From: Ralstonia sp. TCR112
Lineage (GTDB): Bacteria > Pseudomonadota > Gammaproteobacteria > Burkholderiales > Burkholderiaceae
Length of the DNA: 64,000 nt
Assembly (NCBI RefSeq): GCF_007997035.1
Contig: NZ_VOSS01000044.1
Coordinates: forward strand, 1 to 64,000
Direction of reading: 5' to 3'
In this document: positions 13,647 to 64,000 of the stretch, piece after piece
Numbering within the stretch: the first letter of the stretch is position 1
Layout of the letters: every line of letters begins with the position of its first letter
Position numbers and translations under genes: made by a program
The notes under the pieces: model-generated
What the model was told of the DNA's origin: nothing
Seen by the model: only the letters and a program-made list of their open reading frames with translations
The model's database searches: none

Positions 13647-13690
13647 AGATTGGGTCGGACTACCCGACGCGCGAGCGGCAATACGAACGA

Positions 13691-13735
13691 TGGTGGGTGC
13701 TGAGAGGCTCGAACTCCCGACCCGCGCCTTGTAAG
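13691..13735 (-). pseudogene. 3' fragment of tRNA-Val (TAC) = prophage left attachment site
   Basis: Read on the minus strand this is the 3' half of a tRNA: anticodon loop remnant CCTTACAAGG, T-arm GGGAGTTCGAGCCTC, acceptor strand AGCACCC and CCA. The 5' half (acceptor, D-arm) is missing and unrelated sequence begins after 13735. This is the mark of a phage that integrates into the anticodon region of tRNA-Val and restores the tRNA at the other end. The intact tRNA should lie beyond the right window edge. Confidence 0.85.
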
Positions 13736-13773
13736 GGATTTGCTTGTCATTTCAAATCAAGAACTTACAAGGC
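13726..13773. repeat. inverted repeat at the attachment site
   Basis: GCCTTGTAAG (13726-13735) and its reverse complement CTTACAAGGC (13764-13773) are separated by 28 bases. The left arm is tRNA anticodon-stem sequence, the right arm is phage DNA. It may be an integrase core or arm site. Confidence 0.6.
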
Positions 13774-27923: not shown

Positions 27924-29081
27924 ATGAAACGCTATTTCGCCGAACACACCTCGTACCTTACGACCCCGGGAGAAATGGGCGGCGTTGATGCACTTCGAGC
28001 GATTGCCGTGTGCTCGGTAGTATTTTTCCATTTCGGGATGCTCAATCCCGGCTGGCTAGGTGTAGATCTCTTCTTTGTGCTTTCGGGCTTCCTCATCGGC
28101 GGGGCGATTATCGACAAGGTCGAGCGTGGCGCATGGTCATACCGAAAATTCTACGGCCACCGCGCGCTTCGCATCCTGCCCCTCTATTACACCGTAATTG
28201 CGCTCAAATCGGTGATGATTGGCTTGCCTATCAGCGGGCTATCGTGGAAGTCGGTCGGCAGTATCGCAGCGGCCCTGACCTTCATGCAGACCTCTTCAAT
28301 CTGGTACTTCGATTGGGTTGGTGACGGAAACTTCGTGCCAGGTGGCACTTGGAGCCTTGTGATTGAGGAATATTTCTATCTGCTCTGCCCAATCTTCATC
28401 GCGACCGTCTGGAGCCTGTTTCACAGCCGCAAGGCGCTCTTGATCTCGCTGCTGATCGTTTGTGTGAGCGCGCCAGTTGTGCGTTACGTTGCAAACTACC
28501 ACTATGCGCCAGATGATCTGTACTGGTACTTCTCAAGTTGGCTCCAATTCCGTTCTCGCTATGACACGCTCGCATGGGGCGTCTTGACGGCGCTCGTTGT
28601 GAGGATGGTCAAGCTAGATTCACGACAGCGCATGGTGGCCTTTTCGATTGGCTTTGCGATTCTCGCTGCGTCGATAACCTATCTTGTGAACTCGCGCATG
28701 TGGGGCCATTCTGCACAGACGACACGGTTTGCCGCGTTGTGGTTTCCGGCAATGCTCGGAGTCTGTTTCGCGGCGATCCTCGCGGCTGTCTATCGGATGA
28801 ATTGCCGGTCGTTGCCGGTCATCATCATCGCACGGCTGTCATTCTCTCTCTACCTTGTGCATATCTTCGTGCAGGAGGTGTATTGGGCCTATCGCGACGC
28901 TCCATTGCTGGCGTGGATTAAGGGCATGCCACTTCCAGGAATGGCGGTCATGCTCATACCCTTTTCCTCCGTCTTGGCGTGGCTACTGTCATTCCTTGTC
29001 GAATACCCGTTCGTTAGAACGTACAGGAAGCCGTTACTGAAGAACAAGGAGGCCGTTGGGAAGTCGGCGCAGATCGCGTGA
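27924..29081 (+). CDS. membrane acyltransferase (O-antigen/glycan acetylase type)
   Basis: 385 residues of the acyltransferase_3 family, about ten membrane segments. Motifs: VVFFHFGM with the catalytic His, LGVDLFFVLSGFLIGG, RALRILPLYY, and GTWSLVIEEYFYLLCP. Such phage enzymes O-acetylate lipopolysaccharide and change serotype or block further adsorption. It is less GC-rich than its surroundings, as usual for morons. It is the third surface gene of the cassette. Confidence 0.85.
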   Translation: MKRYFAEHTSYLTTPGEMGGVDALRAIAVCSVVFFHFGMLNPGWLGVDLFFVLSGFLIGGAIIDKVERGAWSYRKFYGHRALRILPLYYTVIALKSVMIGLPISGLSWKSVGSIAAALTFMQTSSIWYFDWVGDGNFVPGGTWSLVIEEYFYLLCPIFIATVWSLFHSRKALLISLLIVCVSAPVVRYVANYHYAPDDLYWYFSSWLQFRSRYDTLAWGVLTALVVRMVKLDSRQRMVAFSIGFAILAASITYLVNSRMWGHSAQTTRFAALWFPAMLGVCFAAILAAVYRMNCRSLPVIIIARLSFSLYLVHIFVQEVYWAYRDAPLLAWIKGMPLPGMAVMLIPFSSVLAWLLSFLVEYPFVRTYRKPLLKNKEAVGKSAQIA

Positions 29082-52795: not shown

Positions 52796-52870
52796 TGGTT
52801 GCGGCAAGTGGAATCGAACCACTGACCTTCGGGGTATGAACCCGTTGCGCTACCGCTGCGCCATACCGCA
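52796..52870 (-). tRNA. phage tRNA-Met (CAT)
   Basis: Cloverleaf with acceptor TGCGGTA/TGCCGCA, anticodon loop TTCATAC (CAT), T-arm AGTGGTTCGATTCCACT and encoded CCA. It could also be an Ile tRNA read after lysidine modification. Confidence 0.9.
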
Positions 52871-61820: not shown

Positions 61821-61849
61821 TTGAGAACATGTTATCTCTTTGCTAGAGT
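61821..61849 (+). promoter_or_regulatory. promoter of the DGR unit with phage operator in the spacer
   Basis: -35 TTGAGA (61821-61826), 17-base spacer, extended -10 TGC-TAGAGT (61844-61849). The operator TGAGAACATGTTATCT lies at 61822-61837, overlapping the -35 and spacer. Repressor binding should stop transcription of the targets (inferred). Confidence 0.65.
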
Positions 61850-61900
61850 GCTCACACGCACCACAAAACCTGAGGTCAATAACCCATGAAGGGGAGAACC

Positions 61901-62509
61901 ATGAACGCAGTTGTGAACGGCATTACTGTCCCGGCCATCATCGGAACACCGTGGGAAGGCGGCTTCTATAGCGGTCTGATCACTTTCGGTGGCGATGTGT
62001 ATGCGCAAGTCACCGCCGCAAAGACTGACGGCGAGCACAAGCCCGCCATCTGGCTCCTGGATTACACCGAGATCAAGGGCGCCGACAGCTTCTTCGACGG
62101 CTTGGCGAACACGAAGGGCATGGCCGAGGCCGGCAGCGAGATCGCCCAGTGGGCACTCGAGCAGCGCATTGCTGGCTTCGATGACTGGGCCATCCCTGCG
62201 CGCGATCAACTCGAACTCCAGTACCGGCACTTCAAGCCGACCACCCAGGAGAACTGGGTGTGCCGCAACGGTGACAACCCGAGCAGCCTGCCCCCGGGCT
62301 ACCCGTACACGATTCACCTGCCCGGCCAGACCACGGTCGAGCTGTTCCGCGTCGGCGGCACCGAGGCCTTTGCTGCTGACTGGTACTGGTCGAGCACGCA
62401 GTACTCGGCCGACGACGCCTGGAGCCAGACCTTCAATGGTGGCAGCCAGCACTACGCGAGCAAGGACCTCGAAGGTCGTGTCCGCCTCGTCCGCAGCATC
62501 AAGCTTTAA
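61901..62509 (+). CDS. DGR target protein 1 (DUF1566/C-type-lectin-like)
   Basis: 202 residues from ATG 61901 (GGGGAG upstream; ATG at 61886 is an alternative). No signal peptide. The C-terminal third has the lectin-like layout: FDDWAIPARDQLELQYRHF, then DWYWSSTQYSADDAW and the end GRVRLVRSIKL. Residues about 166-198 are the variable repeat. By family knowledge, the variable residues form a ligand-binding face on a stable fold. Binding partner is unknown. Codons that differ from the template are nearly all AAC in the template. Confidence 0.88.
   Translation: MNAVVNGITVPAIIGTPWEGGFYSGLITFGGDVYAQVTAAKTDGEHKPAIWLLDYTEIKGADSFFDGLANTKGMAEAGSEIAQWALEQRIAGFDDWAIPARDQLELQYRHFKPTTQENWVCRNGDNPSSLPPGYPYTIHLPGQTTVELFRVGGTEAFAADWYWSSTQYSADDAWSQTFNGGSQHYASKDLEGRVRLVRSIKL
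62396..62493 (+). repeat. DGR variable repeat VR1
   Basis: 98 bases aligned without gaps to TR 63694-63791. There are 12 differences, and all fall where TR has A (A to G, C or T). The last 20 bases match TR exactly (likely the initiation site of mutagenic homing). Confidence 0.95.
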
Positions 62510-62561
62510 CCCTTCATCCTTTCGACGGCCCAGACCAACCGATCACGATCAAGAGGATCAG

Positions 62562-63152
62562 ATGAGCGAAATCACTATTCCCTTCCACGGCGGAAAGCTC
62601 GTGGTGCCCGAGAACGAAGCTGCGCGCGCGTGGCTCGACAAGGTTCTCAAGGCAACTTCCGACCAGAGTCTGCCGCGCATCAACATGCCGCCCGCACTCG
62701 GAGAGTACTGGGCCGGCGAAGGCGGCATCTTCGCCGGACTCATGCCGGACGGTAACGGTGGCCAGTATCCCCTGATCGCGTCGGTCGATGACTTCGGCCC
62801 AGCCGAATGGGGCGCCTACGGTCAGGACGAACCCGGTGCCAAGAGCGATCTCGACGGCTATGCAAACACGCGAGCGCTCATCGAGAGCAAGCACGCGCAT
62901 CCGGCCGCGCAATTCGCCACCGGTTACACGAAAGACGGTCACAGCGACTTCTTCCTGCCCGCCAAACGGCAGATCTCGCTGTGCGCGTCAACCATCCCCG
63001 AGAAGTTCGAGAAGGCTTGGTATTGGACGTCGACCCAGTCCTCGGCCGACTACGCCTGGTCCCAGTACTTCACTGTTGGCGGCCAGCTCACCGCGTACAA
63101 GAGCAACGGAGGTCGTGTCCGCCTCGTCCGCAGGTCGAACTTTAAGTTTTAA
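62562..63152 (+). CDS. DGR target protein 2 (DUF1566/C-type-lectin-like)
   Basis: 196 residues from ATG 62562 with AAGAGGATC upstream; 52 bases after target 1. The same C-terminal plan: DFFLPAKRQISLCAS, KAWYWTSTQSSADYAW, and GRVRLVRRSNFKF. The variable repeat covers about residues 158-190. The N-terminal part differs strongly from target 1 (an extra domain, ITIPFHGGKLVVPENEAARA), so this is not a simple duplicate. No signal peptide is seen. Probably diversified by the same template. Confidence 0.88.
   Translation: MSEITIPFHGGKLVVPENEAARAWLDKVLKATSDQSLPRINMPPALGEYWAGEGGIFAGLMPDGNGGQYPLIASVDDFGPAEWGAYGQDEPGAKSDLDGYANTRALIESKHAHPAAQFATGYTKDGHSDFFLPAKRQISLCASTIPEKFEKAWYWTSTQSSADYAWSQYFTVGGQLTAYKSNGGRVRLVRRSNFKF
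63033..63130 (+). repeat. DGR variable repeat VR2
   Basis: 98 bases aligned without gaps to TR. 16 differences at TR adenines and one at a G (third base, likely outside the copied tract). The last 19 bases match TR exactly. Confidence 0.95.
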
Positions 63153-63161
63153 CTATTAACC

Positions 63162-63536
63162 ATGGCAGCCGCCAAAGACCTACCCGTCTACAAGGTCGCG
63201 TACGACTTGCTGGGCGTCATCCTGAGCGCGGTGCGCAACATGCCGCGCGATGTGAAGCAGCTGGTCGGGGGTCCGCTCACCAAGGAAGCGATGGACATCG
63301 TCGTCCTGATCTTCCGCGCGAACTCCACCACCAACAAGGTGCCGTATCTGACCGATCTGCTGGAACGGATCGAAGTGATCAACCTGCTCCTGCGCCTCGC
63401 GCACGACATGAAGATGATCACGACGAAGCCGTACGCGGCAGCGATTCAGCGCACTGATATGGTCGGCAAGCAGGTAGGTGGCTGGCGGAAACAACAATCT
63501 GCATCGTCGCCCGCTGCACCACGGTCATGGCCGTGA
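63162..63536 (+). CDS. Avd-like DGR accessory protein
   Basis: 124 residues, helical: LPVYKVAYDLLGVILSAVRNMPRDVKQ, KEAMDIVVLIFRANSTTNKV and LTDLLERIEVINLLLRLAHDMKMI form the four-helix-bundle pattern of Avd. The protein forms a basic pentamer that binds the reverse transcriptase and the DGR RNA. The end is Ser/Pro-rich. It lies between target 2 and the template, the usual place. Confidence 0.9.
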   Translation: MAAAKDLPVYKVAYDLLGVILSAVRNMPRDVKQLVGGPLTKEAMDIVVLIFRANSTTNKVPYLTDLLERIEVINLLLRLAHDMKMITTKPYAAAIQRTDMVGKQVGGWRKQQSASSPAAPRSWP

Positions 63537-63693
63537 TGCCTGTGCGAATTATTGATCTGGTCGCGCCGCTGCTCCACAAGGGCACCGCCATGCGCACAAC
63601 AGAAACCGGCTGCCGGTGTGCGGAAAGGTCTGGCGCAGTTGCTGCACTGATCGGCTGACGCCTTCGGTGCGGTGACGTAGATAGCGCGATACG
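63537..63693 (+). ncRNA. spacer of the DGR RNA between avd and the template repeat
   Basis: 157 bases with no frame that looks real. In DGRs the RNA that carries TR also includes such flanks, which fold and prime cDNA synthesis. Function here is inferred from position. Confidence 0.5.
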
Positions 63694-63791
63694 ACGCAGT
63701 ACTCGGCCAACAACGCCTGGAACCAGAACTTCAATGATGGCAACCAGAACAACGCGAACAAGAACAACGAAGGTCGTGTCCGCCTCGTCCG
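63694..63791 (+). repeat. DGR template repeat (TR)
   Basis: 98 bases rich in AAC codons: in the targets' frame it reads TQYSANNAWNQNFNDGNQNN and ends GRVRLVR. It has 32 adenines. AAC can mutate at two positions to 15 other codons without making a stop. It is not part of a target gene. Confidence 0.95.
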
Positions 63792-64000
63792 AATATCAGT
63801 GCGATGCAGAGGGCCTCCTTTCTTTCGAGGCGCTCGTACGGGCCTATTTCGACTGCCGGCGCACGAAGCGCAACACGCGCAACGCGCTGGAGTTCGAGCA
63901 GGATCTGGAGCACAACCTCGGGTGCCTGTACGGCGATCTGTTGGATGGATCGTATCGGCCAGGCCGCTCCATCTGCTTTGTGGTCACGCGACCGAAGCCG
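63734..64000 (+). CDS. DGR reverse transcriptase, N-terminal part (cut by the window end)
   Basis: An open frame reads through and past TR to base 64000. After TR: SEYQCDAEGLLSFEALVRAY, CRRTKRNTRNALEFEQDLE, GDLLDGSYRPGRSICFVVTR, ending PKP. This is the start of the group-II-intron-like reverse transcriptases of DGRs (finger region; YxDD motif would come later). Possible starts: ATG 63734 or 63737 inside TR, or GTG 63776. It copies TR RNA with errors at adenine. Confidence 0.9.
   Translation, partial: MMATRTTRTRTTKVVSASSEYQCDAEGLLSFEALVRAYFDCRRTKRNTRNALEFEQDLEHNLGCLYGDLLDGSYRPGRSICFVVTRPKP

Follow-up and report, generated by a model that had tools for sequence, protein, structure and literature searches.

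A prophage-borne diversity-generating retroelement in Ralstonia sp. TCR112 with a structured RNA upstream of its template repeat

Described systems and the layout of the cassette

To our knowledge, priming has been worked out in detail for only one diversity-generating retroelement (DGR), that of BPP-1. There, the genes and the template repeat (TR) follow the order mtd-avd-TR-brt (NC_005357). The TR directly touches avd (0 nucleotides, nt), 144 nt separate it from the reverse transcriptase (RT) gene brt, and the Rfam family RF03022 (Phage_DGR RNA) is found in that 3′ spacer. The annotation describes the target as a tail protein, and a hairpin of 8 base pairs (bp) follows its variable repeat (VR). 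As described in parts of one study, the spacer folds and recruits RT and Avd, and an adenine within it primes the synthesis of complementary DNA (cDNA) (PMC12875486). The present analysis concerns a DGR in a stretch of 64,000 nt from Ralstonia sp. TCR112 (assembly GCF_007997035.1, contig NZ_VOSS01000044.1, positions 1 to 64,000), hereafter called the window. This DGR shares with BPP-1 a TR and VRs, the order of avd, TR and RT, and an RT nearest to the solved structure 8ub7, but it has a structured leader of about 156 nt on the 5′ side of the TR, no spacer to the RT, and neither a target annotated as tail protein nor a hairpin behind the VRs.

Retrons are arranged in the order a1-msr-msd-a2-RT, a1 and a2 being the names of the paired strands. 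In the parts of a retron review used here, the ends of the msr-msd RNA pair, and the msr strand contains the priming guanosine or ends just before it (PMC6868368). The locus in the window and its relatives likewise show a 5′ scaffold, a template and an RT. Since the ends of the RNA are predicted to pair and a conserved G closes the 5′ strand, as in that description, the layout can be called retron-like. The DGR itself belongs to a known and widespread phage type; the 5′ scaffold and the enclosing helix are what looks new.

All parts of the cassette are located on the plus strand, starting at 61886 with target gene 1, followed by target gene 2, avd, the leader RNA, the TR and the RT gene. Target gene 1 (61886-62509), coding for 207 amino acids, matched Lcl_C/DUF1566 in Pfam (36.0 bits, cut-off 34.9) and phrog_4245. 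Target gene 2 (62562-63152), coding for 196 amino acids, is Lcl_C-like and matched phrog_4245 at 5.5e-30, its Lcl_C score of 26.5 bits being below the cut-off of 34.9. The repeats VR1 (62396-62493) and VR2 (63033-63130), found by ungapped comparison to the TR, sit at the 3′ ends of both targets, which are lectin-like by family, with the Lcl_C cut-off reached by target 1 alone. The accessory gene avd (63162-63536), coding for 124 amino acids, matched bAvd (50.2 bits, cut-off 40), phrog_3206 and, below its cut-off of 80, the NCBIfam model Avd (61.4). It is followed by the structured leader RNA (63505-63696), a match to Rfam RT-15 (RF03018) which overlaps the last 32 nt of avd, and by the TR (about 63694-63791), located by repeat comparison.

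The RT gene (63734-64000) runs past the window edge, with a frame open to position 64915 on the contig of 103901 nt. It contains the motif YVDD and an RVT_1 domain (58.2 bits, cut-off 29.6). Its best solved relative in the PDB is 8ub7 (130.5 bits, the next 34.8), which we take to be the RT of the BPP-1 DGR. The model retron_St85_RT was matched with 42 bits, its cut-off of 235 not being reached; the RT is of the DGR type. Among the PADLOC models the RT matched many RT models, the generic one best, and neither the targets nor Avd matched any of them. Target 1 had no significant relative in the PDB. The only in-frame ATG, GTG or TTG codons before the RT core are at 63734, 63737 and 63776. A start upstream of the TR was ruled out for these three codons in the window, where a stop codon precedes the TR. 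Because the RT frame is open through the TR in 112 of 122 loci of the family described below, and the start codons of the window all lie inside the TR, the N-terminus of the RT may be encoded by the TR, in a frame different from that of the VR.

A complete prophage-borne DGR is almost certainly present. An initial annotation of the window had proposed two targets, Avd, a TR and an RT on one strand, VRs aligning to the TR without gaps, and a system cut by the window edge. All of these were recovered, and the RT motifs were found in the extended contig. In its view a missing RT core beyond 64000, or repeat differences in related strains that are not specific to adenines, would have spoken against a DGR; the core is there and the differences among the VRs of relatives lie mostly at TR adenines, so neither holds. 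Its placing of the element among early genes and away from the tail genes agrees with the replication and recombination neighbours and with the virion genes on the opposite strand. Its suggestion that the arrangement may be new had to be given up, as the same order and place occur in isolated phages, 86 of 122 related loci have two VRs, and one contig from IMG/VR (L104) is identical to the element over the 4813 nt compared.

Adenine-specific variation and related loci

Both VRs align to the TR over 98 nt. In VR1, 12 of the 32 TR adenines are changed and none of the 66 other bases (Fisher p 2.8e-7). In VR2, 16 of 32 adenines and 1 of 66 other bases are changed (p 8.8e-9), the single exception lying near the repeat edge (63696). 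Besides the TR itself and the two VRs, no match to the TR better than E 0.3 was obtained in the genome, in which further copies of the TR, the VRs or target 1 were not found.

A tblastn search with the RT yielded 108 phage records, nine of them at 59-76% identity; these nine include one phage under two accessions and two others of the same length and score. Seven phages were read and have the same order of repeats and RT: Magia (MT701587), Cruim01, SC_8_H2H8_2017, LPPA56, Haboob, phPA-G and Shewanella phage vB_Sb_QDWS. Six of these are annotated at the locus and show early-type neighbours (methyltransferase, recombination or integrase genes), LPPA56 naming a tyrosine recombinase only, while SC_8_H2H8_2017 is without annotation there. 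In the record of Burkholderia phage Magia, one gene is already annotated as a potential DGR target. Magia and its kin have two VRs, the TR and the RT in the same order as the window, an RT that is 59-76% alike, and, in the five of the seven scanned, RT-15; they differ in that the window has lost the CAG of the enclosing helix. In an alignment with the targets of five of the phages (Cruim01, LPPA56, Haboob, Magia and QDWS), target 1 of the window was 25-50% alike to them.

Two scans for related loci gave at least 80 loci each. The survey set comprised 160 loci among the matches listed and eight more, namely the window and the seven phage stretches. An RT at least 55% alike is found in 131 survey loci (window counted, L104 left out), 122 of which have a repeat of at least 80 nt. 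This set of 122, drawn among the matches listed and including the window, holds 115 distinct RT sequences and is called the family in the following. Within the 7 kb searched, two VRs were found in 86 loci, three in 27, one in 8 and four in 1. In some relatives a third or fourth VR is located upstream of the cassette, in several of them kilobases off (L175 1012-1119, L119 4890-4995, L037 3392-3962 and others). An avd match is present in 122/122 loci, and in 114 its stop codon lies 100-200 nt before the TR. L051 stands apart from the other loci: by our measure, the end of its best avd match falls 1.2 kb downstream of the TR start, so that avd may have been relocated there or the match may be wrong. 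In all 122 loci the distance from the TR end to the RT core is -7 to +25 nt.

Pooled over the 122 loci with their 265 VRs, 3218 of 7728 sites facing a TR adenine differ, compared with 119 of 18192 elsewhere. Close relatives show the same pattern. The loci L133 and L134, which are identical in RT and TR, differ at 24 of 52 TR-adenine sites of the VRs, at 0 of 132 other VR sites and at 39 of 1716 sites outside the VRs. The phages Haboob and phPA-G differ at 25 of 66 adenine sites, 0 of 138 other VR sites and 111 of 1687 sites outside. There are 35 close pairs (RT at least 90% alike), 6 of which are identical copies. The 29 others are not independent, since some loci appear in several pairs; 23 of them show no more than one non-adenine VR difference, and 4 have 3 to 6. 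The pairs L125/L153 and L115/L153 show 29 and 38 such differences, tentatively taken as the result of unlike targets being aligned to each other. This turnover of VRs at TR adenines points to mutagenic retrohoming in the family.

One feature of BPP-1 missing here counts against the explanation proposed below. No hairpin was found 3′ of either VR in the window, the longest perfect stems within 60 nt being 3 and 4 bp, whereas the VR hairpin of BPP-1 was recovered as a stem of 8 bp by the same measure. In the family, stems of at least 7 bp occur within 50 nt after 28 of 265 VRs, compared with 2.0 expected. According to the parts of two studies used here, loss of the hairpin in BPP-1 impairs homing without abolishing it, and a hairpin is not required of every DGR (PMC12875486, PMC3240598).

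Leader RNA, enclosing helix and conserved G

The stretch between avd and TR is covered by the RT-15 match with 178.4 bits, the gathering threshold being 82. RT-15 was found in all six family loci scanned (the window and five of the seven phages) and in 2 of 10 distant loci, but not in BPP-1. It was present in 10 of 200 sampled genomes of the host's family (9 over the cut-off; 7 of 25 genera) and in 1 of 369 sampled genomes of the host's class, and the RT was found in 1 of 16 genomes of the host's genus. An alignment of 27 leaders, chosen by us as spread loci, contains 48 pairs, 33 of them changed on both sides. In this alignment 95.4% of cells are paired (82.5% in shuffles) and 158 cells show double changes compared with 40 in shuffles, a value reached in 0 of 500 shuffles and collapsing on sliding. 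On these covariation grounds, we regard the leader as genuinely structured across the family. A structured spacer 3′ of the TR, as known from BPP-1, is absent here; the structured RNA sits 5′. Conserved RNA was also sought in the RT coding sequence, and synonymous change in RT codons 1-45 was not reduced (122 loci, 2784 pairs of loci). A Sp-like RNA hidden within the RT coding sequence was rejected for lack of such a drop.

The Rfam match ends at the TR, so that the 3′ strand of a further, enclosing helix lies outside it. In the family, AAUCUG in the leader would pair with CAGAUU directly 3′ of the TR. In the window, the 5′ strand, which corresponds to a1, is assigned to 63550-63559 from covariation in relatives. 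The 3′ strand, which corresponds to a2, is assigned to 63792-63801, directly 3′ of the TR and within the RT frame. The loci were anchored by UCUGGU in the leader (120/122) and CAGA or CAAA at the end of the TR; both anchors are present in 114 of 122 loci (83 distinct), and 8 do not have both. The third variable pair is paired in 79 of the 83 loci, compared with 37 in shuffles, and C-G, G-C, U-A, A-U and U-G all occur. In alignment A5 (81 loci), 63 double changes were counted over the nine pairs compared with 20.0 in shuffles, a value reached in 0 of 500 shuffles and collapsing on sliding. On a tree of the RTs, changes fall on 16 branches for one column of the third variable pair and on 13 for the other; 11 branches are common to both, where 1.3 are expected. 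By mutual information, the leader column is linked most strongly to its predicted partner (1.39 bits, the next 0.71).

Further support comes from outside the anchored set. Of the 21 distant loci that have a TR, we examined 19. In four of them, with RTs only 45-46% alike, the leader carries AUCAUUUG and the TR is followed by CAAAUGAU (by CACAUGAU in one case). There, UUUG:CAAA replaces UCUG:CAGA, with U-A in place of the C-G of the main clade and the same GUC next to it. Of the loci without both anchors, L017 and L039 combine GAUUCUG in the leader with CAGCAUC behind the TR, L057 has GAAUCUG and CAGCUUC, and L065 has UUGAUCUG and CAUAUCAA. In our reading these four retain most pairs with one or two mismatches each, while L147 and L048 do not.

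A single base separates the enclosing helix from the first leader helix, position 63560 in the window. It is a G in 27/27 loci of alignment A3, which was not selected by motif. This G is part of the UCUGGU found in 120 of 122 leaders and stands in the same place in the four distant loci; the selection of loci for alignment A5 presupposed it. It is the candidate priming nucleotide.

Several points weigh against the helix and the retron-like layout. The number of A5 pairs with change on both sides is 4, compared with 3.6 in shuffles (319/500). For the remaining three variable pairs, the RT tree shows 2, 2 and 3 shared branches, where 1.1, 0.7 and 1.8 are expected; as this is little above chance, the covariation appears to rest mainly on one pair, beside fixed pairs. 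The second variable pair is non-standard in 35 of 81 loci, 28 of these being A-C. The constancy of UCUG:CAGA is no evidence, since the anchors required it in A5 and in the test on 83 loci. By folding alone, the mean pair probability is at least 0.5 in 43 of 81 relatives, yet also in 32 of 81 with a foreign tail. The helix was not seen in 13 of the 19 distant loci examined, and two others, L094 and L095, which pass a 7-of-8 rule without the GUC and are A/U-rich, were taken for chance. The leader of the window alone folds no better than shuffles (z -0.06). Its helix comprises seven contiguous pairs, two of them G-U, and an isolated U-A, with a thermodynamic folding probability of 0. Finally, in contrast to retrons, the RT is of the DGR type, and Avd and VRs are present.

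With these points included, we hold with good confidence that the leader RNA and the enclosing helix exist in the family, as judged from sequence comparison. The best overall explanation is probably the DGR together with this RNA layout and the following proposed steps. By pairing the leader with the bases just behind the TR, the enclosing helix would close leader and TR into one domain. Given a leader 5′ of the TR and a helix closing this domain, the 3′ spacer of BPP-1 would be replaced by a 5′ scaffold. RT and Avd would bind the domain, and the 2′-OH of the conserved G would prime cDNA at the 3′ end of the TR, in the manner of the retron branch G. While copying the TR, the RT would misincorporate at adenines and halt near the leader stem, and the cDNA would replace VR1 or VR2. 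The target products might be binding proteins of early infection or of the lysogen, facing a changing partner in the host or a rival. The priming step, drawn by analogy with retrons, is more doubtful than the layout and may well prove wrong. We can only tentatively suggest that a widespread clade of phage DGRs makes its mutagenic cDNA from a retron-like RNA, with the G as branch primer, and diversifies early, non-virion hypervariable proteins.

The same elements could instead belong to an ordinary DGR like that of BPP-1, with priming 3′ of the TR in the RT coding sequence and the leader serving as a landing site for RT and Avd or as a cis-regulator of RT translation. Avd, RT and the types of targets are indeed those of ordinary DGRs, and the RT start lies in or beyond the leader. 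In addition, an open RT frame spans the whole TR in 112 of 122 loci, and in 28 of 122 every start codon lies upstream of the TR, so that leader and TR may be translated or control translation. Such a mechanism would have to work with -7 to +25 nt between TR and RT core in every family locus and with RT codons 1-45 lacking reduced synonymous change, and the covariation of the helix that links the leader to the bases behind the TR also speaks against it. We regard it as possible, if somewhat doubtful.

Alternatively, the helix is real but merely holds the transcript together or ends reverse transcription, and the cDNA starts from the 3′ end of a nicked RNA. Covariation demonstrates pairing and not priming, and a DGR paper of 2017 reportedly claims nicked-template priming in its title. 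The conserved G occupies the position of the retron branch G, where the a1 strand ends, which speaks for priming from the G instead, and this alternative appears improbable.

If the retron-like reading is true, the RNA here would be a rearranged form of that of BPP-1, giving a link in form between DGRs and retrons and suggesting a common logic of both. A clade of this size with its scaffold on the opposite side of the template would be a natural test of which RNA features matter, and leader, TR and RT without a spacer make a compact template design. RT-15 was presumably introduced by Weinberg 2017. In the literature searched, no account of RT-15 as a DGR RNA or of a 5′ DGR scaffold was found, a weak negative since several key papers were outside that search.

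In the window copy, the tail after the TR reads AAUAUCAGUG. Only 63550-63556 pair without a break; there are two mismatches, as G63559 faces A and C63557 faces U, and the CAG kept after the TR in nearly all relatives is lost. The copy therefore either tolerates damage to the helix or has stopped working, its genes and repeats being otherwise intact. It is not very probable that it is a decaying DGR whose past diversification was halted by this damage: no interruption affects RT, avd, TR or either target, and VR1 is free of non-adenine changes. The missing CAG fits such decay, and precedents exist in the phages Aurca01 and Medea1, which retain both targets while avd, TR and RT were not found near them (whole record of Aurca01, 10.6-kb stretch of Medea1). 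Compared with the TR of Cruim01, the target 1 VRs of these two phages and of Cruim01 itself are changed at adenines only (14 differences in Aurca01, 12 in Cruim01 and 18 in Medea1). In Aurca01 the targets are followed by a C-terminal RT-like remnant of 26 residues (62% alike, E 8.7e-4), and the DGR core seems to have been deleted while the targets were retained. Besides these orphan targets (L022 6152-6229, L186 3618-3730), a third VR-like copy was noticed elsewhere, on the other strand.

Target proteins and the prophage setting

A hypermutated target outside the structural genes has a precedent in the Quimbyvirus DGR, where, in the parts of the study used here, a hypermutated non-structural target near methyltransferases is described and proposed to act in phage-host conflict (PMC8008677). 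The idea of such a target is thus not new. Quimbyvirus has one structural and one non-structural target, whereas in the window both are located in the early region, as shown by the repressor and replication genes on one side and the recombination and integrase genes on the other.

Copies of a tRNA-Val repeat bound a prophage of about 62 kb. The left attachment repeat (13683-13737; 55 nt) is identical to the 3′ region of tRNA-Val at contig positions 75840-75894, and an integrase gene lies beside this second copy. The virion genes, coding for terminase, portal, sheath, tape measure, baseplate and tail fibre, are found on the minus strand at 29-51 kb. Upstream of the DGR are a repressor gene at 54 kb, replication genes and genes for a NinI-like phosphatase and a Holliday junction resolvase, and downstream are genes for a helicase-methyltransferase, a YqaJ-type exonuclease and the integrase. 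The DGR is thus on the strand opposite the virion genes, between the replication genes and the recombination and integrase genes.

From this genomic place it is argued that the targets are not virion proteins, and a non-virion role is slightly favoured. They might also be receptor-binding virion proteins like Mtd that happen to be encoded away from the tail genes, as their lectin-like C-termini would suggest. We consider this unlikely with the targets opposite the virion genes and beside replication and recombination genes, and the relatives give a similar picture. In 58 related loci, 20 of 114 large open reading frames (ORFs) within 5 kb downstream matched an integrase family, and among the 25 commonest of the 106 families matched there none is described as tail or head. 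A typical signal peptide was not seen in the family target ORFs in a crude hydropathy screen of the first 45 residues, which flagged 12 of 251 ORFs, some of them doubtful calls; target 1 of the window scored 1.96 (threshold 1.8). If both products are probably non-virion proteins, the question arises what a temperate phage gains from hypermutating them.

A promoter-like site, TTGAGA-17-TAGAGT with TG before the second hexamer, lies upstream of target gene 1 on the plus strand (61821-61849). It is a consensus match only, with 1 match found and 0.5 expected by chance. Position 61821, given as the start of the element in the initial annotation, coincides with the first hexamer of this site.

Three further features of the prophage were noted. 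The helicase-methyltransferase downstream of the DGR is a fusion of 836 amino acids (contig positions 66738-69248; L002 5739-8249), located 1.8 kb past the RT. Within the prophage, close to its terminase end, a tRNA-Met was called on the minus strand (52796-52870). Adjoining the tail fibre gene, on the opposite strand, is a gene resembling those for O-acetyltransferases or O-antigen acetylases (27924-29081), which is a candidate for lysogenic conversion of surface sugars.

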